Assembly (NCBI GenBank): GCA_016212885.1
Contig: JACRDO010000095.1
Location: 1 to 64,000, forward strand
From: Elusimicrobiota bacterium
GTDB taxonomy: Bacteria; Elusimicrobiota; Elusimicrobia; UBA1565
DNA length: 64,000 nt
Reading direction: 5' to 3'
The number at the start of each line of letters is the position of its first letter. Within the stretch, counting starts at the first letter, position 1. Shown here one piece after another: positions 1,166 through 13,929 of this stretch. A program made the translations under genes and the position numbers. The notes below the pieces were generated by a model. The model was not told the origin of the DNA, did no database searches, and was given only the letters and a program-made list of their open reading frames with translations.

Positions 1166-1194
1166 TTGACCCATCAAGATAATCCTGCTAGAAT
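1166..1194 (+). promoter_or_regulatory. Sigma-70-type promoter for the VWA gene
   Basis: TTGACC (1166-1171), a 17-base spacer and TAGAAT (1189-1194) form a near-consensus promoter. The ATG at 1202 is only 7 bases after the -10 box, which implies a leaderless mRNA. Confidence 0.7.
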
Positions 1195-1201
1195 CGCCCG
1201 A

Positions 1202-2146
1202 ATGTTGATTCTTACCCTTTTAGCAGGCCTCTGCTTCCTGCCGTCCGCTCAGGCTTGGGCGGCCCAGGCCGAGCCCAAGGACACGGACCTCGTTCTCATC
1301 TTCGACGCGAGCGGCTCCATGAACGAGAGCGTCCAGGGCGGGCGCAAGCTCGACGTGGCGAAGGACGCGATGTGGAAGTTCGTGGACTCGCTTCCCAAGA
1401 ACGTCAACATCGGGCTCGTGGCCTTGGGGGGCTACTGCAGCGTGACCACCCTTCTGCCGGTCAAGAAATCCGCCCCGGCCGCCAGGCAGGAGCTCAAGAA
1501 GGCCATGGCGGGCCTCCAGGCCAACGGCAGCACCCCCATCGGCGGGGCCTTGGACCGGGCCGCGCAGCTCCTGGCCGCCTCCAAGAACAAGAAGCGCATC
1601 GTCGCGATGACGGACGGCGACGAGACCTGCTCCGGGCCCCAGCTCGCCGCGGCCTCGGACGCGGCGTGGCGCCAGGGCGTCAAGGTCTACGCGATCGGCT
1701 TCGCCTTCGGCAAGGAGCCCAGCCTCAACTTCCGCCGCATCGGCATCTACAAGGACGCCAACGACGAGAAGCAGCTCGCCTCCGTGTTCACGGACATCCG
1801 CAAGACGCTCGAGCGCGAGACCGGGAAGTTCGACGAATCCCAGTCGGCGCAGGCCGAGAAGCCGCCGGTTTCCTTCGTCGGCAGGATGGGCCGTTTCAAG
1901 CCCTCCGGCGGGGAGAGGGCGGGCAGGCTGTTCACCAGCCTCCAGCTCAGCTCTTCCTTCGAGCGCCGTTTCGACGAGAATGACCGCTTCAAGGTGCTCG
2001 AGCACGGCTACGACGTGAAGTTCAACGAGGCCGACTTCAAAGCGGAGAAAGCCGAGGTGCTGAGGGTGAGGCTGGAGGAGAAGCTCAATTTCCAGTTCAG
2101 CGGGGCGGAAGGCTTCGTATTCGCCGACGACGTGGTGATTGAATAA
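1202..2146 (+). CDS. Secreted VWA-domain protein
   Basis: A signal peptide (residues 1-20, ending near AWA) precedes a von Willebrand A domain with a complete MIDAS: DASGSM at residue 35, the Thr of STPIGGAL and the TDGDE motif. The remaining 130 residues have no recognised domain. ATG 1202 is chosen because it starts the signal peptide and sits at the predicted transcription start; the upstream TTG at 1166 is part of the -35 box. The gene is followed after 15 bases by pspA and probably shares its transcript. VWA domains of this kind bind protein partners through a metal ion, so a scaffolding role at the envelope next to PspA is inferred. Confidence 0.85.
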   Translation: MLILTLLAGLCFLPSAQAWAAQAEPKDTDLVLIFDASGSMNESVQGGRKLDVAKDAMWKFVDSLPKNVNIGLVALGGYCSVTTLLPVKKSAPAARQELKKAMAGLQANGSTPIGGALDRAAQLLAASKNKKRIVAMTDGDETCSGPQLAAASDAAWRQGVKVYAIGFAFGKEPSLNFRRIGIYKDANDEKQLASVFTDIRKTLERETGKFDESQSAQAEKPPVSFVGRMGRFKPSGGERAGRLFTSLQLSSSFERRFDENDRFKVLEHGYDVKFNEADFKAEKAEVLRVRLEEKLNFQFSGAEGFVFADDVVIE

Positions 2147-2161
2147 GTATCAGGAGGGCTT

Positions 2162-2911
2162 ATGTGGCAGAGATTCATGCGGGTGGTGCGTTCCTTCGTC
2201 GGCTTCTTCATCAGCACGATGGAGGATCCCAAGCTGATCCTTGAGCAGACGGTGCGGGACATGCAGGACAAGATTCCGGTCATGAACCAGGGCCTGGCCA
2301 AGGCCCGGGGCGGCATCATCATGATCGAGGGCGAGATCAAGCAGTACGAGCGGGAGATCAGCCTGCTGACCGCCAAGGTCAAGGCCTGCGTCATCGGCAA
2401 GGACGCCAGCCTCGGCGGGCAGTACGCCATCCGCCTCAAGAAGACCCAGGAAGCCCTGGCCCGCGACAAGGAGCAGCTCGCCGCGGCCAAGGCCGGCTAC
2501 GAGTCCCTGCTCAAGATGAAGGAGAAGTTCATGCGCGAGATGAAGGCCAAGACCGACGAGGCCATGGCCGCCATCCGCGACGCGGAGGCTTCCAAGTGGA
2601 AATCGGAGCTCGCCGACACCTTCGAGCAGTTCGAGGTGGCCGGCACCGACGCCACCTACGACGAGATGGTCGGAAAGCTGCGCCAGAAATTGGCAGAGGC
2701 GGAGGGCCGCCTCGCCATGGCAGCTGAGAGCGTGGACCAGAAGGCCATCGCGATCGACGAGCAGGCGGAGGCCCTGGAAGGGCAGGAGCTGTTCAAGAAT
2801 TTCCAGATGGAGATGGGCATCACGGACGCCGGCTCCGGCGCCGCGGAGGATAAGAAGGAAGAAGCCAAAAAGACCATCGGCGCAAAAGAAGCCCAGAAGG
2901 ACCAAGCTTGA
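2162..2911 (+). CDS. pspA: PspA/IM30 family membrane-stress protein
   Basis: The 249-residue protein is a PspA/IM30 (ESCRT-III-like) protein. It has an N-terminal amphipathic helix (MWQRFMRVVRSFVGFF), then the conserved MEDPKLILEQTVRDMQ segment and long coiled coils with the AGTDATYDEM hinge. Family members polymerise on damaged inner membrane and prevent proton leakage. An AGGAGG Shine-Dalgarno site lies just upstream. The C-terminal tail is charged and slightly longer than in E. coli PspA (222 residues). There is no pspBC or pspF nearby. Instead it neighbours a VWA protein and an ABC/AAA+ cluster, which suggests a different stress-response wiring. Confidence 0.93.
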   Translation: MWQRFMRVVRSFVGFFISTMEDPKLILEQTVRDMQDKIPVMNQGLAKARGGIIMIEGEIKQYEREISLLTAKVKACVIGKDASLGGQYAIRLKKTQEALARDKEQLAAAKAGYESLLKMKEKFMREMKAKTDEAMAAIRDAEASKWKSELADTFEQFEVAGTDATYDEMVGKLRQKLAEAEGRLAMAAESVDQKAIAIDEQAEALEGQELFKNFQMEMGITDAGSGAAEDKKEEAKKTIGAKEAQKDQA

Positions 2912-3012: not shown

Positions 3013-4704
3013 ATGGAATTGAAACTCGGCGGAAAGATCGCTCTGCTTTTGGTGGTCCTGGCCTTGGGCCTGGGCGCCCTCTACAAGTTCGGGCTCATCA
3101 AGAAGGGCATGCTCCCCATGGGGGCGTCCATCAACAAGGACACCCTCGACAAGATCCGCAAGGGCGAGGAGACCCCCACCACGGCCAAGAACTACTCCTT
3201 CGTGGCCAAGCAGTCCATCACCGAGGTCAAGGGCACGAGCAGCTATAAGTTCGAGAACAACACCGTGGTCTTCCCGATCAACATCTGGGGCGGCTGGGCG
3301 CCCATCATCGCCGCCAACAACGGCTTCGGCCCGAACAAGGACTCCGTCTTCTTCAAGAACTACGGCTTCCTGGTGGACCTCAAGCTCATCGACGACCCGG
3401 TGGCCGCGCGCGACGCCTTCGCCTCCGGCCAGTCCCACGTCCTCTGGGGGACCCTCGACATGATCGCCCTCTTCGCCCCGGGGCTCTCCAGGGACTCCAG
3501 GACCATGCCCATCGTCTTCCAGCAGATCGACTGGTCGAACGGCGGGGACGGCATCGCGGTCCGCGCGCACATCAACGAGGCGAAGGACCTGCGCGGCAGG
3601 ACCATCGTGCTCGCGCAGAACTCGCCCTCGCACTACTACATCCTAAGCGTCCTCACCGACGCCGGCATCCAGCCCTCCGAGGTCAACTTCAGGTTCACCG
3701 CCACGGCCTTCGAGGCGGCCAAGGCCTTCGTGGACAACCAGGACATCGACGCCTGCGTCTCCTGGGCGCCCGACATCTACAACATCGTCGACGAGAAGTA
3801 CGGCGGCAAGAAGGGCGGCGTGGCCGGGGCGCGGCTGCTCACGACCACGCGGGACGCCTCCGAGCTCATCGCCGACGTCTGGGCCGCGCGCGCGGACTTC
3901 GCCCGCGACCACCGCGAGATCATCAAGGGCCTGGTGGCCGGCATCTTCAAGGGCTACGACATCGCCAAGGCCAACCCGGACAAGGTCGCGGCCCTCATGG
4001 CCAAGGGCTACGGCGTCTCGGCGGAGGAGGCGAAGGGCATGATGGGAGACGCCCACCAGACCAACTTCGCCGAGAACAAGAAGTTCTTCCTCGTCAAGGA
4101 CAACCCCGCGAACTTCGCCCGCACCTGGGCAGCTGCGAGCTACGTCTACAAGGCCTACGGGGCCATCGGCACCCCCGCTCACGCCGAGGAGATCGTGGAC
4201 ACCTCGGTTTTAGACGAGCTCGAAGGCCAGTTCCCCGGCCACAAGGACGAATATATCCCGACCTTCAACAAGGTCAACATCTCCCGCATGAAGCTCGAGA
4301 GCACGCCCATCCTCACCAAGGCCGTCATGATCCAGTTCCCGCCCAACCGCTGGGACCTAGACCGGAGCTACGACCGCACCATCGACAACACGCTGGAGGA
4401 GGTCGCCAAGCTCGCCGGCAAGTTCGCCGCGGCCCGCGTCATGATCGAGGGCAACGTGGACACGAGCCGCAAGATCGAGTTCCAGCGCGAGGGCCCGCGG
4501 GTCTTCAAGGAGATGTCGCTCGCGGTGCAGGAGCTCAGCGAGCGGCGCGCGGAATCCGTCCGGCAGGCGATCGTGGTGAGGTACAAGTTCAACCCGAACA
4601 AGCTCACGGTCATCGGCAACGGCTGGGAGAACCCCGCCTCCCTGAACGACCACGCGAAGAACCGGCGGGTGGAGATCAAGGTCTATCCGCCCGAGGCCGA
4701 ATAG
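3013..4704 (+). CDS. ABC substrate-binding protein fused to an OmpA-like domain
   Basis: The 563-residue protein begins with a hydrophobic anchor (about residues 7-27) without a lipobox. A NMT1/SsuA/TauA-type periplasmic binding domain follows (about 75-420; IWGGWAPIIAANNG, VLWGTLDMIALF, VSWAPDIYN). The C-terminal domain (about 430-563) has the OmpA-like peptidoglycan-binding pattern and ends ..HAKNRRVEIKVYP. A strong AGGAGG site precedes ATG 3013. The fusion should tether a solute receptor to the cell wall beside its ABC transporter, encoded immediately downstream. The OmpA GHTD-type motif is degenerate (EGNVDTS), so wall binding is not certain. The ligand is unknown; sulfonate- or thiamine-precursor-like receptors are the nearest relatives by motif. 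Confidence 0.85.
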   Translation: MELKLGGKIALLLVVLALGLGALYKFGLIKKGMLPMGASINKDTLDKIRKGEETPTTAKNYSFVAKQSITEVKGTSSYKFENNTVVFPINIWGGWAPIIAANNGFGPNKDSVFFKNYGFLVDLKLIDDPVAARDAFASGQSHVLWGTLDMIALFAPGLSRDSRTMPIVFQQIDWSNGGDGIAVRAHINEAKDLRGRTIVLAQNSPSHYYILSVLTDAGIQPSEVNFRFTATAFEAAKAFVDNQDIDACVSWAPDIYNIVDEKYGGKKGGVAGARLLTTTRDASELIADVWAARADFARDHREIIKGLVAGIFKGYDIAKANPDKVAALMAKGYGVSAEEAKGMMGDAHQTNFAENKKFFLVKDNPANFARTWAAASYVYKAYGAIGTPAHAEEIVDTSVLDELEGQFPGHKDEYIPTFNKVNISRMKLESTPILTKAVMIQFPPNRWDLDRSYDRTIDNTLEEVAKLAGKFAAARVMIEGNVDTSRKIEFQREGPRVFKEMSLAVQELSERRAESVRQAIVVRYKFNPNKLTVIGNGWENPASLNDHAKNRRVEIKVYPPEAE

Positions 4705-4713
4705 GGGCGAAGC

Positions 4714-5532
4714 TTGACCCTCAAGGAAACCTTCAAGATCCGGGCGGAGAGCCTGCGCCGGCGCAGGTTCCTGCTGGGGTTCGCGAGCGTCTTCTCGGCG
4801 CTGTTCATCTGGTGGCTGCTCACAACCGGCTCCCAGGTCGAGACCCGCATCCTCAGCCCCCAGATCCTGCCCAACCCGCTCGAGGTCCTGAGCTCGTTTA
4901 AGGCGCTCATCGCGGAACGGGGCCTGCTCATGGGCATCGGCTACAGCTTCTTCCGCACGACCGTGGGCTTCATGATCGCGGTCGCCGTGGCCGTCCCGCT
5001 GGGCATCCTGATGGCGTCATTTACGCCGGTGAGGGAGTTCTTCCGGCCGTTGTCCACGATCGGGGGCTACGTCCCGATCGCGGTGCTGGTCCCACTCACG
5101 CTGTCCTGGTTCGGCCTGGGCGAGAAGCAGAAGTACATCTTTCTCGCCATGGCCACCTTCGTGCTGCTGCTGCCGCTCGTCGTCAGCGCCATGGACCGGG
5201 TGGATGAGGTCTACCTGCAGACCGCCTATACCCTCGGCGCGACGCGGAGGCAGGCCATCCTGGAAGTGCTCTTGCCCATCGCGCTCGTCGACATCTACGA
5301 CGGCCTCTGCCTGACCTACGGGGTCGGCTGGGGCTACATCATCATGGCGGAGGTCATCGACGCGAAGTACGGCCTGGGCAGCCTCATCATCAGCTCGCAG
5401 AGGCGCGGGCCCTACGAGCACGTCTACGCGGTCCTCATCGTCATCGTGCTCATCAGCGTCCTGATCAACTGGACATTGAATGCGGTGGGCGGCTGGCTCT
5501 TCCCTTATCGGGAAACGGGGAGCGGGCGATGA
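4714..5532 (+). CDS. ABC transporter permease, SsuC/TauC type
   Basis: This 272-residue protein has about six hydrophobic segments and the binding-protein-dependent transport signature around [20 protein letters not shown] (the EAA loop contacting the ATPase). It starts at TTG 4714, nine bases after the receptor gene's stop, with a GGGGCGA-like site. It overlaps the ATPase gene by four bases, as expected for a co-translated transporter. Family members import sulfonates, nitrate, aliphatic amides or thiamine precursors; the substrate here is not determined. Confidence 0.9.
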
Positions 5533-6449
5533 GCGGCCCCGGCGGCGAGAGCATGGACGAAAAATCCGAGAAGCCCCAGCCCGCGCCTGCCGCGCCCAAG
5601 CTAGCCGCTTCCTCCGGAAGCGCCGACGCGGCAGGCGCGGGGCGAGAGGAGAACGACTCGCGCCCCGTCATCGACTGCCGCGGCGTCACCAAGATCTTCA
5701 AAGACCCCCGCACGGGCAAGGACTTCATCGCCCTCGAAGACGTCTCCTTCGTCATCGACGACATCCCGGACACCGGGGAGCTCATCACCATCCTCGGGCC
5801 CTCCGGCTGCGGCAAGAGCACGCTCCTCAACATCATCGCGGGTTTGGGTCCCCATTACCCGCCCACTAAGGGCGAGATACTCATGAAAGGCCGGCCCATC
5901 GCCGGGCCGGGCTCGGAGCGCGGCATGGTGTTCCAGAGCTACTCCTCCTTCCCCTGCTACACGATCCTCGAGAACGTGGCCTTCGGCCTGAAGCTCAAGG
6001 GCGTTCCCGAAAAAGAGCGGGAGGGCATCGCAGCTGAGTGGATCAAGAAGGTCGAGCTCTCCGGGTTCGAGAAGAAGTACCCCAAGGAGCTCTCCGGAGG
6101 CATGCGCCAGCGCGTGGCCCTCGCTCGGACCTTGGCCGTCAAGCCTCGCATCATCCTGATGGACGAGCCCTTCGGGGCGCTCGACCGGATCACCCGCTGG
6201 GACATGCAGGATTTGCTCGTCGAGCTCTGGAGGGAGATCGAGGCCACGGTCTTCCTGGTCACCCACGACATCCCGGAGGCCGTCTTCCTGGGCGACCGGG
6301 TCTTCCTGATGAGCCCGAACCCGGGACGCCTCCTCGAGATCATCAAGCTGCCGAGGCCGACCGAGAAGGCCGCGCACATGCAGAGGACGGCGAAGTTCGC
6401 GGAGATCGTCAACGAGATCAGCCGCAAGGTCGAGGCCATCCGCCAATAA
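5529..6449 (+). CDS. ABC transporter ATPase, SsuB/TauB type
   Basis: A complete nucleotide-binding domain is present: Walker [10 protein letters not shown] (near residue 90), Q-loop FQSYSSF, signature LSGGMRQR (near 187), Walker [10 protein letters not shown] and H-loop THDI. It powers the neighbouring permease. The first 45 residues are a non-conserved Ala/Pro/Ser-rich tail encoded partly by a 62-bp palindrome (5580-5641), so the N-terminus is unusual. The gene overlaps the permease by 4 bases, and its TAA shares a base with the next ATG. Confidence 0.92.
5580..5641. repeat. Nested palindrome inside the ABC ATPase gene
   Basis: CCCGCGCCTGCCGCG (5580-5594) and CGCGGCAGGCGCGGG (5627-5641) are perfect 15-base inverted repeats. 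They enclose a second hairpin, CGCTTCC/GGAAGCG (5606-5612 and 5616-5622). The segment encodes only the Ala/Ser-rich N-terminal tail before the conserved domain, so it may be another in-frame palindromic insertion. Confidence 0.6.
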
Positions 6450-7288
6450 TGGCTGAGAAGACCAGCTACGTCAAAGAAGCCTTCAAGCGCCAGGAAAACC
6501 TGATCGCCCTGGCCGGCTTCGCCGCCGCCGGCGCCTTGTTCAACCCCGGCTTCCTGTTCCTTGGAGGGGCCATCGAGGTCGTCTACCTCTGGATGGTCGC
6601 GGGCAATCCGAGGTTCAAGCGCGTCGTGGACTCGGAGAAGAACCGAAGCAGCCTGCTCCTGGGCCAGAACGAGCGGGTGCGCATGCTCTCCACGCTGCCG
6701 GAAGCCGAGCGCGAGAGATACCTTGCCCTGGCGGACATCCGTCAGCGGGTCTACGACTCCTGGCAGTCGCGCGACTCCGTCACGCAGAGCCTGCTCCAGC
6801 CCAGCGTGGACAAGCTCGACTACCTCCTCGACACCTTCCTGCGCGCCCAGCTGACCCTCCAGCGCATGCGCGAGCATCTCTCAGGCAGCGACTTTGGGGA
6901 CCTCGAGAAGCAGGCCAAGATGCTCGAAACCGAGATCGCTCAGCGCCGCCTGCCGGACAAGCTCACGGAGGTGAAGTCCAAGAACCTGGAGATCCTCAAG
7001 CAGCGCATCGCGCGCCTCAAGAAACTGCAGGAGGACATCGCCGTGGTGCGCACCCAGCTCGACACGCTCGAGAACGCGATCCGCTTCGTCAACGACCAGA
7101 CGGTCTCCCTGAGCGACCCCCAGCAGATCACCAACGAGATCGACCGCGTCGCCTCGGAGGTGGGGGCGACCGAGAAATCCATCCAGGACGTCGAGTCGTT
7201 CCTGGGAACCCAGCAGGAGACCGACGAGAAGCGCATCGGCGAGATCCGCGCGGAGCAGCGCCAGGCGGAGGGGGAGCGCCCGGGATGA
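6449..7288 (+). CDS. Membrane-anchored coiled-coil protein of the PspA/ABC/AAA cluster
   Basis: The 279-residue protein has a hydrophobic hairpin near the N-terminus (about residues 15-50, ALAGFAAAGALFNPGFLFLGG) and then long helices predicted as coiled coil to the C-terminus. No named family was recognised. The ATG at 6449 overlaps the TAA of the ATPase gene, and the end overlaps the AAA+ gene by 4 bases. Such tight packing implies co-translation. A structural or adaptor role linking the transporter or membrane to the AAA+ ATPase is inferred only from context. Confidence 0.8.
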   Translation: MAEKTSYVKEAFKRQENLIALAGFAAAGALFNPGFLFLGGAIEVVYLWMVAGNPRFKRVVDSEKNRSSLLLGQNERVRMLSTLPEAERERYLALADIRQRVYDSWQSRDSVTQSLLQPSVDKLDYLLDTFLRAQLTLQRMREHLSGSDFGDLEKQAKMLETEIAQRRLPDKLTEVKSKNLEILKQRIARLKKLQEDIAVVRTQLDTLENAIRFVNDQTVSLSDPQQITNEIDRVASEVGATEKSIQDVESFLGTQQETDEKRIGEIRAEQRQAEGERPG

Positions 7289-9066
7289 ACCTGGAACAAT
7301 TCCCCAAGTGGGCCCAGGAGCTCGCGGACAAGTACGTGAGCGGGGCCTCGTCTTTGTTCGTGCTCTACGGCAACGTCGACGATTGGGTCCCCATGAAGGA
7401 CGTATCGAACCTTCCAAACAGCGTAGGTTCGATACGTCCAAACCTACAACGTTCGGAAGGTTTGGACGCGCGGAGCCTGCGCTACGTGTCCCTCCCGGAG
7501 TTCCTCAAGCAGGCCGTGTTCGGCACACGGGACGCGGTCATCCAGTACGACCAGGGCGGCGGCATCACGATCGGCTCGGAGGCGGCCCAGGACTTCTACC
7601 GGACCGTGGAGGCGATGGACACCGTCTCCGGCACGACCTTCTCAAAGCGCCTCCCGAAGAACCCGGCCGACGCGCTCCTCGTCATCGACCGGTTCATCCG
7701 CTCGAAGACCGCGGGCGAGGGCCGCAAGAAGGCCGGCATCGCGGTCATCATCTCCTTCGCGCACATGGTCGCCCCGCGCGGGGAGATATCCTTCATGAAC
7801 CAGGAGGACTGCCGCACCCTCATCACCCTGCAGAAGTGGGCCAGCGACCCGCTCTTCGCGCGCTCGGACGTGACCATCGTGCTGGCGACCGCAAGCCTGC
7901 AGGAGCTCAACGAGGCCTTAGTCAACAACCCCTTCACCTCCAAGATCCACGTCCCGCTCCCGGACGAAGAGGAGCGCGCCGAGTTCATCCGGGCCTCCCA
8001 GATCCCGGTCAAATACGAAGGCCTGACCCCGGAGACCTTCGCGCGGCAGACCAACGCCCTCTCCCGCGCGGACATCGAGGTGATGCTGAGGGGCGCCCAG
8101 CGGGCCGATAGGCTCGACCTGAATTTCGTGAGCGCCAAGAAGAAAGAGCTCATCGAGAAGTCCTGCTTCGGGCTGCTCGAGTTCCTGGAGCCCCGCTACA
8201 CCCTCGACGCGGTCGAGGGCCTCTGCGCGGCCAAGAGCCGCCTGCGCGAGGACATCCAGCTCATCAAGAAAGGCTGCTGGGACGCCCTGCCGATGGGCTA
8301 TCTGCTCTGCGGGCCGGTCGGCACCGGCAAGACATTTTTGAGCACCTGCGCCATCGGCGAGCTCGGCATCCCGTGCGTGCAGATGCTCAACTTCCGCTCG
8401 AAGTGGGTCGGCGCCACGGAGGGGAACCTCGAGAAGATCCTCATGACCCTGCGCGCCCTCGGGCCCGTGGGCGTGATCATCGACGAAGCCGACGCCTTCA
8501 TGGGCAGCCGGGAGCAGGAGGGGGACTCCGGCACCTCCGGCCGGATCTTCGCGCAGTTCGCGAGCCAAATGGGCGACACCAAGTACCGCGGCAAGATCCT
8601 CTGGTTCCTGCTCACCTGCCGGCCGGACCTCCTGCCCGTGGACATCAAGCGCCAGGGCCGCGTGGAGGTCCACATCCCGCTCTTCTACCCCCAGACCGCG
8701 GAGGAGAAGGTCCAGCTTTTCGTAGCCATGTCGAAAAAAGCCAAGTGGCCCGTAGAGCCGGCGGACGTGGATGTCCGATGGGTGGAAGGCAAGAAGCTCT
8801 CCGGAGCGGACATCGAAGCGGTCCTCGTCGGCGCCAAACGCAAGAGCCTTCTCGACGGCGAATCCAAGCCCGGGAAGGAGTACCTCCGCCAGGCCGCGGA
8901 AAGCTTCATCCCCGCGGCCAGCGCCGCGCAGGTTCAATACCAGGAGCTCGCGGCGGTCATCGAGTGCACGGACCTCTCGTTTTTGCCGGAGAACTACCGC
9001 AAGGCGGACCGGACGGAGATCCTGAAGGAATTCAACCGCCTGCGGGCCCTGCTGGAGGTGCGCTGA
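7285..9066 (+). CDS. AAA+ ATPase carrying an in-frame palindromic insertion
   Basis: The 593-residue protein has two P-loop-like regions. The first (about 20-290) is degenerate, with no clear Walker A, and contains LLVIDRFIR and VIISFAHM strands. The second is a canonical AAA+ domain with GPVGTGKT (near residue 342) and VIIDEAD (near 396), followed by a C-terminal lid rich in helices. The arrangement recalls Ycf46-like or two-domain AAA+ proteins, but assignment is tentative. Residues 39-61 are encoded by a 69-bp repeat (7399-7467); without it VPMK would join directly to ARSLRYVSLPEFL. It probably remodels a protein complex for the neighbouring PspA/ABC genes. Confidence 0.85.
   Translation: MNLEQFPKWAQELADKYVSGASSLFVLYGNVDDWVPMKDVSNLPNSVGSIRPNLQRSEGLDARSLRYVSLPEFLKQAVFGTRDAVIQYDQGGGITIGSEAAQDFYRTVEAMDTVSGTTFSKRLPKNPADALLVIDRFIRSKTAGEGRKKAGIAVIISFAHMVAPRGEISFMNQEDCRTLITLQKWASDPLFARSDVTIVLATASLQELNEALVNNPFTSKIHVPLPDEEERAEFIRASQIPVKYEGLTPETFARQTNALSRADIEVMLRGAQRADRLDLNFVSAKKKELIEKSCFGLLEFLEPRYTLDAVEGLCAAKSRLREDIQLIKKGCWDALPMGYLLCGPVGTGKTFLSTCAIGELGIPCVQMLNFRSKWVGATEGNLEKILMTLRALGPVGVIIDEADAFMGSREQEGDSGTSGRIFAQFASQMGDTKYRGKILWFLLTCRPDLLPVDIKRQGRVEVHIPLFYPQTAEEKVQLFVAMSKKAKWPVEPADVDVRWVEGKKLSGADIEAVLVGAKRKSLLDGESKPGKEYLRQAAESFIPAASAAQVQYQELAAVIECTDLSFLPENYRKADRTEILKEFNRLRALLEVR
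7399..7467. repeat. Family-1 palindromic element inside the AAA+ gene
   Basis: Two hairpins lie back to back. GACGTATCGAAC (7399-7410) pairs with GTTCGATACGTC (7427-7438), and GTCCAAACCT (7436-7445) pairs with AGGTTTGGAC (7458-7467). The length is 69 bp, exactly 23 codons. The encoded peptide has the pattern NLPxxVGSIRPxLxRS, also found in the transglycosylase and MFS genes. Confidence 0.92.
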
Positions 9067-9782
9067 TGGGATTCAAGGACTGGGTCGACCGCTACGTCAT
9101 CAGCGTGCCGGCTTCCCGCGCCGCGGCGCCCGAGACCGAGATCGAGCCGGGCAGGGTCCCCATGCAGGCGACCGCCAAGGTCGGCAGGATCTCCGTGGAC
9201 ATGGACGAATCCGCGCTGAAGGCTCTGCCGGCCGCCCAGGCGGCCGAGGACGTGCCCTTCGACAAGATCTTCGCCGCGGCCAAGATCCCGGTCCCCGCGC
9301 ATAAGTTCACGGTCGAGAAGATCGCAGAGATGCTCGCTCACCCCAAGCTTGCCTCCCTGGACCAGGCTGGGAAGGCCGCCGCGGCCCTCGTGGCGCTCGA
9401 GTCCCAAGGCGTCACCATCCAGAGCGTCATCGAAGAGGCGGCCAAGAAGGACCGCGCCCTGGACGTATTCGAGAACGTCCAGCGCGAGCGCCTCCGGCAG
9501 TTCGCCCGGCAGAAGGAGGAGGAGAACCGCAAGCTCGCCTGCGAGATCGAGAAGAACAAGAAGGCCGTCGCCGCGGTCGAGCGCAGCGTCGAGGCGTGGG
9601 GCGAGAAGAAGCGCCTCAAGGAGCGCGAGATCTACGACGTCGTCGCTCACTTCACGACGGAGAATCCCATCACCGCCGCGCCGCAGGCGCCCCCTGCTTC
9701 CGGCGCGCCCTTGCGGGAAGCGGCTTCGCCCCAGGGCCCATCGGCCAAGGTTCGGATCACGGATCTGACGCAGAGCGCCTAA
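9066..9782 (+). CDS. Coiled-coil protein ending the PspA/ABC/AAA cluster
   Basis: ATG 9066 overlaps the TGA of the AAA+ gene. The 238-residue product is hydrophilic with no signal peptide. Residues about 85-125 are a helical region (VEKIAEMLAHPKLASLDQAGKAAAALVAL is part of it), residues about 125-190 form a charged coiled coil (RQKEEENRKLACEIEKNKK), and the Pro/Ala-rich tail is probably disordered. No family was recognised. The overlap suggests it partners the AAA+ ATPase in the cytoplasm. It is the last gene before a drop in GC content. Confidence 0.78.
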   Translation: MGFKDWVDRYVISVPASRAAAPETEIEPGRVPMQATAKVGRISVDMDESALKALPAAQAAEDVPFDKIFAAAKIPVPAHKFTVEKIAEMLAHPKLASLDQAGKAAAALVALESQGVTIQSVIEEAAKKDRALDVFENVQRERLRQFARQKEEENRKLACEIEKNKKAVAAVERSVEAWGEKKRLKEREIYDVVAHFTTENPITAAPQAPPASGAPLREAASPQGPSAKVRITDLTQSA

Positions 9783-9846
9783 CAAAACCTATGTGGAGCC
9801 TAGTCCCTGCAATGAAACGCGGGGAACGGCGAAGCCAAAGGCCGGC

Positions 9847-10762: not shown

Positions 10763-11074
10763 CTATCTCCTGTCCCATAGAGCCTGCTCCGCTCTTCGAC
10801 GCCTTTCCAAGCCGTGCAGGACTACTTTTTCCCGCTTACCTGTTCCAGGATCGGTAACGAGCACGCCGTTGAATTCCATCCACTCCTTCAGCACGCCGTC
10901 ATAGTCCAGGGTGTTTAGCTTCACGAACATCTTGCTTTTCCTCACATCCGAAGTGTTTCCCATATTGAACAGAAATACAACAAGGGCCTCATACTGGTGC
11001 TGCGTCAGACGCACGTCCTTGTTCCATATGAGGCTCTTCACGCCGCTCTCAGCCACCGCTATATCAGCCTTCAA
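10763..11074 (-). CDS. C-terminal fragment of a GH24 phage-type lysozyme
   Basis: The 103 residues match the C-terminal half of T4/RrrD-like endolysins: KADIAVAES, LTQHQYEALVVFLFNMG, LKEWMEFNG, then the GLERRRRAEQALW end. The N-terminal half, which carries the catalytic Glu-Asp-Thr triad, is absent from this frame and from the preceding gene, so lysozyme activity is unlikely. The frame starts at TTG 11074, inside the end of the upstream gene. It probably derives from a prophage and is either a relic or a wall-binding fragment. Confidence 0.7.
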   Translation of the reverse strand: MKADIAVAESGVKSLIWNKDVRLTQHQYEALVVFLFNMGNTSDVRKSKMFVKLNTLDYDGVLKEWMEFNGVLVTDPGTGKREKVVLHGLERRRRAEQALWDRR

Positions 11075-11564
11075 TAGCAGCCTTCCATTGGGCCTGATGC
11101 GCGGCGTCGCAAGCCGAAGGCAGCTTCGCGATGTCCTGAAAGCTCTTGGCTAGATTCTTCTCGATGAATTCCAGGCGAGGCGACATCCCCCCGCCGTACT
11201 CGCCCGGCTTGGCCGGCTTCGCCAGTCCCAGATGGATGGGCTCAAAGACCCCGGTGAGTGTCGGAAGCTTCAACTTCCCGGCCAGCGTCTCTTTGTCCAA
11301 TTGCGGGATGATGCGGCGCGCTTCGGCGACCTTGATAATCAAAGCCTGGCCGTCGGCGATGACGGGGAGCAGAGAACTCAGAACAAGATGCTTGGGGCTC
11401 TTCTTTGCGCTTCCGGTGCCGTTGATCGCCGAGGCGGCTTGTTCAAGCGAATCAGCGGATGCAGTTCGTTCCGCCGGGAATAGGGAATCGGATCCTCCGA
11501 AAGCCCAAATACAAAAAAGAATCGACAGGGCAAGCGGCAACCTGCGAAGCAGCGCGACGGCCAT
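11064..11564 (-). CDS. Secreted protein of unknown function
   Basis: The 166-residue protein has an N-terminal signal peptide (LPLALSILFCIWAFG) and a mature helical domain without a recognised family. It overlaps the GH24 fragment by 11 bases. A TATAAT lies 7 bases upstream of its ATG. It belongs to the lower-GC island; an association with the lysozyme fragment (cell-wall targeting) is only positional. Confidence 0.6.
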   Translation of the reverse strand: MAVALLRRLPLALSILFCIWAFGGSDSLFPAERTASADSLEQAASAINGTGSAKKSPKHLVLSSLLPVIADGQALIIKVAEARRIIPQLDKETLAGKLKLPTLTGVFEPIHLGLAKPAKPGEYGGGMSPRLEFIEKNLAKSFQDIAKLPSACDAAHQAQWKAAIEG

Positions 11565-11814: not shown

Positions 11815-13929
11815 ATGCGAGGGTTCCTTCTTTCCCTGAGCGCAACCGCCTGGGTCGCGTGCTTGCCGGCCCTGCTCTCGCCCGCGCAATCTACGGGCCC
11901 TCCGCTCCAGTCCCAGATCCTCGAGGGTCATCGCCTCTATTTCGAAGGCCGGCACCGCAAAGCGGCCGAGCTCTACTCCCAGGCGCTCAGGGAGGATCCC
12001 CGCAGCGTGGACGCGTGGCTCAACGGAGCCGTCGTCCACTCCGAGCTGGGGGAAGGCGCGCGCGCGGTCGAATGGCTCCGCCGCGCCGCGGCGCTCTCTG
12101 CCGAGGACCCCGAGATTCGCATCGCGCTCGCGGAAGCCGAATTCCGCGTGGGCAGCCGCGAGGCCGCCCTTCAGGACGCCGAGCAGGTCCTGCGCTCCCA
12201 TCCGAAGGACCCTTTCGCCCTGATCGTGAAAGGCCGCCTGCATCTCAACGCGGGGCAAGCGCAGGAGGCCGCTGAGGCCCTGGAGGCCGCGGCGGCGAGC
12301 GCGCCTGAGCTGACCCTGGCCTATTACTGGCTCGGCAAAGCGCGGGAGGCAGCTGGGGATTCCGCGGGCGCCCTTGAGGCCTACCGCCGCGCGGTCTTGG
12401 GGGATTCCTACTTCACGAGCGCCCGCTACCAGCTCGGCCGCTCCTACCTGCGCTTGAAGCGCTTCTATGAGGCCGCCAAGCAGTCCGCCCAGCTGCTCAA
12501 CGCGGACCCCAGGAGCAGCAAGTTCCGAGCCCTGCTCTCGGGGATCAGCCAGCGCTCCATCGATAGGACCAAGCCCGGCCCGGAGCCTCGCGAGAAGCCT
12601 CTGAATTCGACCCACCGGGAACCCCTGGGGCCCCCTTTTCCGCCCAAGGGCCGGGTCCCGGTCATGCGGGTCGGTTTGGGGACCAACTCCCTCGGCAAGC
12701 CTCTGCGCCGGCGAGACCTGGCCTTCTACTGCACGAGGGATTTCACTGTCCTGGACCCGAAGTCCGGGCGGGTTCTTTCCAGCGGCCGCGCAAAGGAGGC
12801 TTGGCGCGCGCGGCAGGCCCCGGGCAAGAAAGCGCGGATCGAGCTCCTCGACGAAGACGGCCGGCGGCGCGTCCTCACCCGCGCCGGCGTGATCATCCGC
12901 CCGGAGCCGGATAGCGGCGGGGCCGTGGTCCTCAAAGATGTGCCGGCCGACAGCGGCGGCGCCTTGCGCGGCGGAGGCGAACGCCCGCTGCGCGGCGAGC
13001 TGGAAGTATCCCTGCTCGGCGGCCGCGGCGGGCTCCGGCTCGTCAATATCGTGGACCTTGAAAGCTACACCCACGGGGTGCTCGCCTCCGAGATGCCGAT
13101 CGATTCGCCGATGGAGGCGCTCAAGGCCCAGGCCGTGGTCGCGCGCAGCCACGCCCTGTACATCAAGACCGTGACCCGGCGCCACACCAAAGACGGATAC
13201 GACGTCTGCGACGGCCAGCACTGCCAGGTCTACTGGGGCATCCGCAACGAGACCGCGCGCTCGCGCCAAGTCGTGGACGCGACCCGGGGCCGCGTCGTAG
13301 CCTATCAAGGCCGCATCGCCCACGTGCTCTATTCGTCGAACTGCGGGGGACGCACCCAGAGCGGCCGGGACCTGAAAGGCTGGGGGGACGTCCCTTACTG
13401 GAAGGGCGTCACCGATGCGGCCCCCTCCATCCGGTCCCCGGCCTCTCCGTGGGAGCTGCGCCTCTGGCTGCGCCGTCCCCCGCCGGCCTTTTGCCGGCCT
13501 TCCCTGTACGTCCATCCCTCCCACTTCAGGTGGACCCGCGTCATCGCCGCGGAGGATCTCGAGGAGCGCATCAACCGCTCGATGAAGATCGGGCGTCTGC
13601 TCGGAGTCTTGACCATGCAGCGCTCCCTATCGGGGCACCTGAACTCCGTGCTGCTCAAGGGAAGCAAGGCCAGCCCCGTCGTCGCCAAAGAGATCGCCAT
13701 CCGCGGCTTTCTGGGCGACGGTTCCCAGCGCTCGGCCCTCTTCACGGTCGAGACGGAGGCCGACAAGAAAGGCCGGCCCAGGCTCTTCACCTTCTACGGC
13801 GGAGGCTGGGGGCACGGCGTCGGCATGTGCCAATGCGGGGCCATGGGGAGGGCCCTGGAAGGCCAGTCGTACCACGACATCCTCGCGGCCTACTACCCCG
13901 GGGTCGAACTGGGGAATCTACGCTATTAG
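11815..13929 (+). CDS. SpoIID/LytB-domain protein with N-terminal TPR repeats
   Basis: The 704-residue exported protein has a signal peptide (residues 1-25), about five TPR units (35-250), a linker, and a C-terminal SpoIID domain from about residue 405 (VDLESYTHGVLASEM, LKAQAVVARSHA, SSNCGGRTQ, GGGWGHGVGMCQCGA). SpoIID enzymes cleave glycan strands lacking stem peptides, and LytB relatives stimulate amidases. The enzyme's conserved acidic residue in the ASEM segment is present. The TPR part probably binds partners in the periplasm. The gene ends head-to-tail with the TPR gene on the other strand, the two stop codons overlapping. Confidence 0.9.
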   Translation: MRGFLLSLSATAWVACLPALLSPAQSTGPPLQSQILEGHRLYFEGRHRKAAELYSQALREDPRSVDAWLNGAVVHSELGEGARAVEWLRRAAALSAEDPEIRIALAEAEFRVGSREAALQDAEQVLRSHPKDPFALIVKGRLHLNAGQAQEAAEALEAAAASAPELTLAYYWLGKAREAAGDSAGALEAYRRAVLGDSYFTSARYQLGRSYLRLKRFYEAAKQSAQLLNADPRSSKFRALLSGISQRSIDRTKPGPEPREKPLNSTHREPLGPPFPPKGRVPVMRVGLGTNSLGKPLRRRDLAFYCTRDFTVLDPKSGRVLSSGRAKEAWRARQAPGKKARIELLDEDGRRRVLTRAGVIIRPEPDSGGAVVLKDVPADSGGALRGGGERPLRGELEVSLLGGRGGLRLVNIVDLESYTHGVLASEMPIDSPMEALKAQAVVARSHALYIKTVTRRHTKDGYDVCDGQHCQVYWGIRNETARSRQVVDATRGRVVAYQGRIAHVLYSSNCGGRTQSGRDLKGWGDVPYWKGVTDAAPSIRSPASPWELRLWLRRPPPAFCRPSLYVHPSHFRWTRVIAAEDLEERINRSMKIGRLLGVLTMQRSLSGHLNSVLLKGSKASPVVAKEIAIRGFLGDGSQRSALFTVETEADKKGRPRLFTFYGGGWGHGVGMCQCGAMGRALEGQSYHDILAAYYPGVELGNLRY

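Follow-up and report, generated by a model that had tools for sequence, protein, structure and literature searches.

A gene in a bacterium of the Elusimicrobiota joins, in one open reading frame, a solute receptor and a domain of the type that binds peptidoglycan, which raises the question of what a receptor might do at the cell wall, and with which partners. We analysed it in the context of the window, meaning the whole stretch of 64,000 nucleotides presented here, and compared it with related loci in other genomes, plasmids and phages. In the SBP-OmpA fusion protein, Pfam placed an NMT1 domain (PF09084) at residues 113-324 (E = 1.8e-8; 35 bits against a cut-off of 20.5) and an OmpA domain (PF00691) at residues 442-551 (E = 6.6e-9; 36.4 bits against a cut-off of 27.2). 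The N-terminal membrane helix has a mean hydropathy of 2.28, and residues 5-25 are helical in the AlphaFold2 model. A binding domain, an OmpA-like domain and an N-terminal helix on one protein, as given in a preliminary description of this DNA, are therefore agreed on by the open reading frame, Pfam, hydropathy and AlphaFold2. A lipoprotein or an outer-membrane protein was ruled out, as the chain has no lipobox cysteine, no barrel and one N-terminal helix.

Table 1 Features of the SBP-OmpA operon, with positions in the window.
Feature	Position	Strand	Evidence
Secreted von Willebrand A (vWA) protein, signal peptide, DxSGS MIDAS motif	1166..2146	+	Pfam VWA_2, E 2.9e-16
PspA/IM30 protein	2162..2911	+	Pfam PspA_IM30, E 4.9e-13
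SBP-OmpA fusion protein, 563 aa, ATG start	3013..4704	+	Pfam, AlphaFold2, PHROG phrog_25518
Uncleaved N-terminal membrane helix, residues 11-29, without lipobox cysteine	3043..3099	+	Hydropathy, sequence comparison
Solute-binding domain, NMT1/TauA/SsuA type, residues ~84-400	3262..4212	+	Pfam, alignment, AlphaFold2/Foldseek
OmpA-like peptidoglycan-binding domain, residues ~434-558	4312..4686	+	Pfam, domain model, Foldseek
D483 in GNVD, equivalent of A. baumannii OmpA Asp271	4459..4461	+	Alignments
Region with 14-residue insertion between pocket Asp and Arg, residues ~488-505	4474..4527	+	D-to-R spacing
R512 in LSERRA, equivalent of A. baumannii OmpA Arg286	4546..4548	+	Alignments
ABC importer permease, TauC/SsuC type, EAA-loop motif	4714..5532	+	Pfam BPD_transp_1, E 5.2e-19
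ABC importer ATPase; Walker A, signature and Walker B intact	5529..6449	+	Pfam ABC_tran, E 3.6e-30
Membrane-hairpin and coiled-coil protein	6452..7288	+	Conserved synteny; no Pfam family above cut-off
AAA+ ATPase, C-terminal AAA module	7285..9066	+	Pfam AAA, E 7.6e-23
Coiled-coil protein; weak relatives in giant-phage cassette (phage G gp246)	9069..9785	+	Synteny, profile comparison

The full-length AlphaFold2 model, built on an alignment of 11 sequences (the fusion protein and ten homologues), reached a mean pLDDT of 77, with poorly predicted linkers at residues 30-71 and 413-427. When its receptor body was searched against the PDB with Foldseek, TauA was the top match (6ssy; E = 1.8e-15), and SsuA, Thi5, CmpA and NrtA were also found. 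The OmpA part was modelled separately with 26 homologous domains (pLDDT 85.9; pTM 0.81), and its top PDB matches were structures of A. baumannii OmpA (3td3, 3td4 and 3td5), solved with glycine, with diaminopimelate (DAP; 3td4) and with a stem pentapeptide (3td5), followed by OprF and TagL. Structure prediction, which the preliminary description had named as a check, thus recovered the OmpA-like fold, whose absence would by that description have refuted the idea. A sequence profile built from OmpA domains of the family likewise retrieves the A. baumannii domain (E = 6.7e-27); a sequence-only search of PDB chains with the Elusimicrobiota domain gave weak matches, the best at E = 3.7e-4.

The fusion lies in an eight-gene operon that runs in one direction (vWA, PspA, SBP-OmpA, permease, ABC ATPase, transmembrane coiled-coil, AAA+, coiled-coil) with short gaps throughout, permease and ATPase following the fusion within 9 bases or overlapping. 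The PspA, AAA+ and vWA neighbours, absent from the preliminary description, are the most informative part of this context, and a genome search found no other PspA in the assembly. A motif scan located the sole Walker A motif of the AAA+ ATPase at residue 343, with none in its N-terminal half. Residues 129-556 of this protein match phrog_8638, of unknown function (E = 5e-29), and a relative of it may also exist in phages, outside the cassette described below. Adjoining the operon, just outside it, is a phage-type lysozyme locus (10763-11564, minus strand; PF00959, E = 2.6e-14), the N-terminal part being absent from its frame; the next frame at this locus (11064-11564) has a signal-like start, and a frameshift may have split what was a single gene. 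Further downstream is a protein with TPR and SpoIID domains (11815-13929, plus strand), which also lies downstream of the operon in a genome of the same genus, G001.

PspA/Snf7-TM, AAA+ and ABC transporter operons with a PBPB-OmpA protein (example, OGG56892.1) are described in a PSP survey (mSystems 2024; PMC11237479), one paragraph of which proposes that OmpA holds peptidoglycan and the receptor feeds the transporter. The type is described there with an AAA+ protein of two AAA modules, the N-terminal one inactive, and a Snf7 homologue with a TM segment, which is possibly the counterpart of our membrane-hairpin protein. PspA, ABC ATPase, permease and PBPB-OmpA stand in one operon here; the Elusimicrobiota operon is a further member of that type, and the wall-anchor idea has already been published in outline. 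The main text of the survey mentions no Elusimicrobiota, vWA gene, DAP residues, bacteriophages or phage cassette, and no version with TelA.

We propose that the fusion protein is probably the receptor subunit of a taurine/sulfonate-class ABC importer, held between membrane and wall and forming one unit with the PspA, AAA+ and vWA module. Its N-terminal helix would sit in the inner membrane, its middle domain would catch a small solute for the permease and ATPase encoded next to it, and the OmpA-like domain at its C terminus would clasp the DAP stem peptide of peptidoglycan, like MotB, TagL or Pal. The importer would thereby be fixed between membrane and wall, with the three kept in alignment. 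We infer that import would be coupled to PspA/AAA+ activity, the importer acting with PspA, the membrane-hairpin coiled coil, the AAA+ ATPase and the periplasmic vWA protein, most likely as a module that maintains the membrane at the site where it is held to the wall.

Close copies of the fusion were present in 4 of 341 Elusimicrobiota genomes, belonging to two families. Besides the window, it is conserved at full length with 81-88% identity in two genomes and is split over two contigs in a third; G001 and G010 preserve the order of the operon, as does G040 across two contigs. The SpoIID neighbour was not found beside the G010 copy, and the downstream flank is common only within the genus. This patchy distribution suggests that the operon has moved horizontally. 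The architecture is no chance join, because it is conserved at full length in Elusimicrobiota and recurs in Vibrio plasmids and giant phages, and an assembly error is ruled out by the same conservation in other genomes and phages.

Our chief new finding is that the SBP-OmpA/importer/PspA-like gene set occurs in giant phages, where it seems to be undescribed in the literature searched: the cassette is not mentioned in two jumbo-phage reviews, a huge-phage survey or the Jug-phage paper, nor did full-text literature searches return it. Using tblastn, we found the fusion in Bacillus phage G, in Prevotella Lak phages (540-552 kb) and in uncultured phages of 595 and 735 kb; a structure search of BFVD gave no full-length viral counterpart, and the phage homologues came from sequence searches. 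The profile phrog_25518 covers residues 4-555 of the 563 in the Elusimicrobiota protein (E = 1.5e-34), and PHROGs label both this family and that of phage G gp247 (phrog_33389) 'unknown function'. Side by side in giant phages stand an ABC permease, an ABC ATPase, a coiled-coil protein, a PspA-like protein that has a membrane segment, and SBP-OmpA proteins, singly or in pairs. In phage G (NC_023719, L072) the cassette comprises gp243-gp250, the fusion being gp249 and the adjoining gp250 having the same domains; further cases are Lak-A2 (L073) and the 735-kb genome LR756501 (L074).

A profile scan of IMG/VR added 32 loci (L077-L108) on contigs of up to 497 kb, which fall into two groups by gene order. 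The first group comprises 15 loci (L077-L091), 14 of which run from a coiled coil through a PspA-like protein that has a membrane segment to SBP-OmpA, permease and ATPase, with no ATPase detected in L078; phage G-like loci start with permease and ATPase, followed by a coiled coil that was found in some of them, then the PspA-like protein and SBP-OmpA. Viral membership in IMG/VR is a prediction, the firm cases being phage G, Lak and the 735-kb genome. PspA was assigned in phages by profile comparison, with hhalign E-values that are each from a single comparison: 4.4e-8 over 182 columns for the first group against the Elusimicrobiota PspA, and 5.1e-5 over 208 columns for phage G gp247 and its relatives. 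The phage cassette resembles the Elusimicrobiota operon in its SBP-OmpA, permease, ATPase, PspA-like and coiled-coil proteins and in the N-terminal anchor motif, a KLxxGK-type start common to many giant-phage homologues. It differs in the membrane segment of the PspA-like protein, in an OmpA domain without the insertion, and in the frequent loss of the pocket Asp in the phage G-like group; vWA and AAA+ were not found next to it.

Related operons on Vibrio megaplasmids encode an ATPase, SBP-OmpA #1, vWA, SBP-OmpA #2, a membrane coiled coil, TelA, a third receptor and a permease, and most of these components also occur in Elusimicrobiota genome G015 and on a 545-kb IMG/VR contig. The operon of the 595-kb phage (LR756511) resembles this type. 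It holds (L075:11887-20449) an SBP-OmpA, a vWA, a second similar receptor protein, a membrane protein, a coiled-coil protein, a third receptor, a permease and an ATPase, the coiled-coil protein, which matches no Pfam family, occupying the place of TelA. NCBI names the Vibrio fusions 'nitrate ABC transporter substrate-binding protein' and 'phosphate ABC transporter substrate-binding/OmpA family protein', and the megaplasmid receptors (L036, L037, L038) nitrate, phosphate and urea receptors; these ligands are putative. TelA-type operons share with the Elusimicrobiota operon an SBP-OmpA fusion, vWA, ATPase, permease and membrane coiled coil, and fusion #1 has the insertion at the same place in its OmpA domain. 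They differ in that TelA replaces PspA, that there are two fusions and a third receptor, and that fusion #1 starts with what appears to be a cleavable signal peptide and has no membrane anchor, so that membrane anchoring is not universal in the family. In the tree, the Elusimicrobiota clade joins TelA-type fusion #1 (support 0.98), consistent with their common insertion; in single BLAST comparisons, however, the fusion scored best against an IMG/VR protein that belongs to the phage cassette type (30%, E = 5e-61).

Could the operon be a cellular copy of the giant-phage cassette, or the reverse, that guards an infected or threatened envelope, for example against superinfection or premature lysis? 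Five gene families of the operon (SBP-OmpA, permease, ATPase, PspA-like and coiled-coil) do have counterparts side by side in phage G, the Lak phages and the 735-kb phage, and the distribution in Elusimicrobiota is patchy; Al-Shayeb 2020 further suggests that phage envelope proteins change susceptibility to other phages. We nonetheless hold this reading to be unlikely, given that the tree places the Elusimicrobiota clade outside the phage cassette clade, that the GC of the operon (0.647) is close to that of the window (0.661), and that PADLOC returned no system-specific defence component for the operon, only generic ABC-ATPase (mad3) and AAA (IetA) similarity. For want of a specific match there, a known anti-phage defence system was ruled out.

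The wall-held importer that we propose is like TauABC and SsuABC in the folds and motifs of receptor, permease and ATPase and in its single permease gene, whilst the receptor of those systems is soluble and that of the Elusimicrobiota is membrane-anchored with a wall-binding domain. Its best NCBIfam score was 56 bits against a cut-off of 163.5 (SsuA_fam); the TauA and SsuA equivalogs were not reached, and all matches to NCBIfam transporter models lay below cut-off, so no ligand is assigned. Taurine, sulfonate and urea were ruled out as assignments by scores so far below cut-off.

Nine receptor residues (W92, S175, G177, G178, D179, P205, D254, T279 and D288) are invariant among highly diverged members, and a QIDWSxGGD motif occupies residues 171-179. 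This invariance, an ATPase with all catalytic motifs, and the presence of permease and ATPase beside the fusion at almost all loci whose flanks are long enough argue against a structural strut, in which the solute-binding fold would be a spacer or protein-docking module and no solute would be moved. Some giant-phage and Vibrio operons carry two or three paralogous receptor domains per permease, beyond the needs of import, and the partners are membrane-remodelling proteins, both of which would suit a strut; overall we judge it distinctly unlikely. It appears quite improbable that the receptor binds a peptidoglycan fragment (muropeptide or stem peptide), making the fusion a wall-damage sensor or a recycling receptor that feeds the PspA module: the domain most resembles proteins that bind small sulfonates, nitrate, bicarbonate and thiamine precursors, not the peptide-binding class, even though a wall-binding domain is on the same chain, the PspA/AAA+/vWA neighbours suggest envelope stress, and the lysozyme and SpoIID genes are among the nearest downstream, if outside the operon. 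The earlier idea that the protein senses a wall-derived ligand found no specific support, the receptor being closest to the taurine/sulfonate binders TauA and SsuA.

Attachment of the importer to the wall would depend on the OmpA-like domain. In A. baumannii OmpA, Asp271 and Arg286 contact DAP (PMC5974059), and alignment places an equivalent of each in the fusion, which rules out a degenerate site as far as these two contact residues are concerned. The preliminary description had the DAP-binding residues only partly present; this does not apply to the key contacts, but does apply to the altered GHTD, in which H is replaced by N and T by V, and the end that it called good (NRRVEI) is indeed kept as KNRR. 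N for H is the family norm (31 of 43), whereas V for T is not. Arg is kept in all 42 members of the 43-member family set that cover the position, and Asp in 29 of 43, the exceptions being mainly in the phage G-like group, whose members mostly have Asn there, or else Ala or Gly, and keep Arg. DAP contact via Asp is therefore not essential in every member. Loss of Asp with Arg kept in that group might mirror another wall chemistry of the hosts.

The spacing from D to R is 29 residues in the Elusimicrobiota fusion against 15 in the canonical family, about 15 being typical and not strictly defining. As the insertion lies beside the pocket and may reshape it, the DAP site is, judged by sequence, likely usable but reshaped. 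MotB/PomB, TagL/TssL and Pal likewise have an OmpA-like domain on a membrane-anchored chain with D and R retained; the Elusimicrobiota fusion differs in its cargo, a solute receptor, and in the insertion. It is very doubtful that the OmpA-like domain has become a vestige, or that it binds a protein, on the pattern of YfiB-YfiR, in place of peptidoglycan, since D483, R512 and the KNRR end are kept and Arg is found in every member covering the position, despite the lost T of GHTD, the insertion near the pocket, the Asp lost in the phage G-like group and YfiB among the structural matches. The anatomy lends good support to the suggestion that the protein keeps the transporter at the wall: there is an inner-membrane helix, a receptor, an OmpA-like domain with D483 and R512, and an intact permease and ATPase downstream.

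Tentatively, the Elusimicrobiota operon may be the cellular form of an exchangeable envelope machine, a wall-anchored ABC importer with a PspA-like membrane protein, or with TelA in related operons, of which giant phages carry a compact cassette that would keep the infected or stressed envelope intact or closed to competitors. For phage G, a cultured phage, the cassette provides a testable assignment for unexplained genes, and it prompts the question of what use a phage has for a wall-tethered importer and a membrane-stabilising protein of its own. The Elusimicrobiota fusion, with its DAP-contact residues intact, is a well-preserved example of a transporter receptor that would be fastened to the cell wall and connected with PspA.
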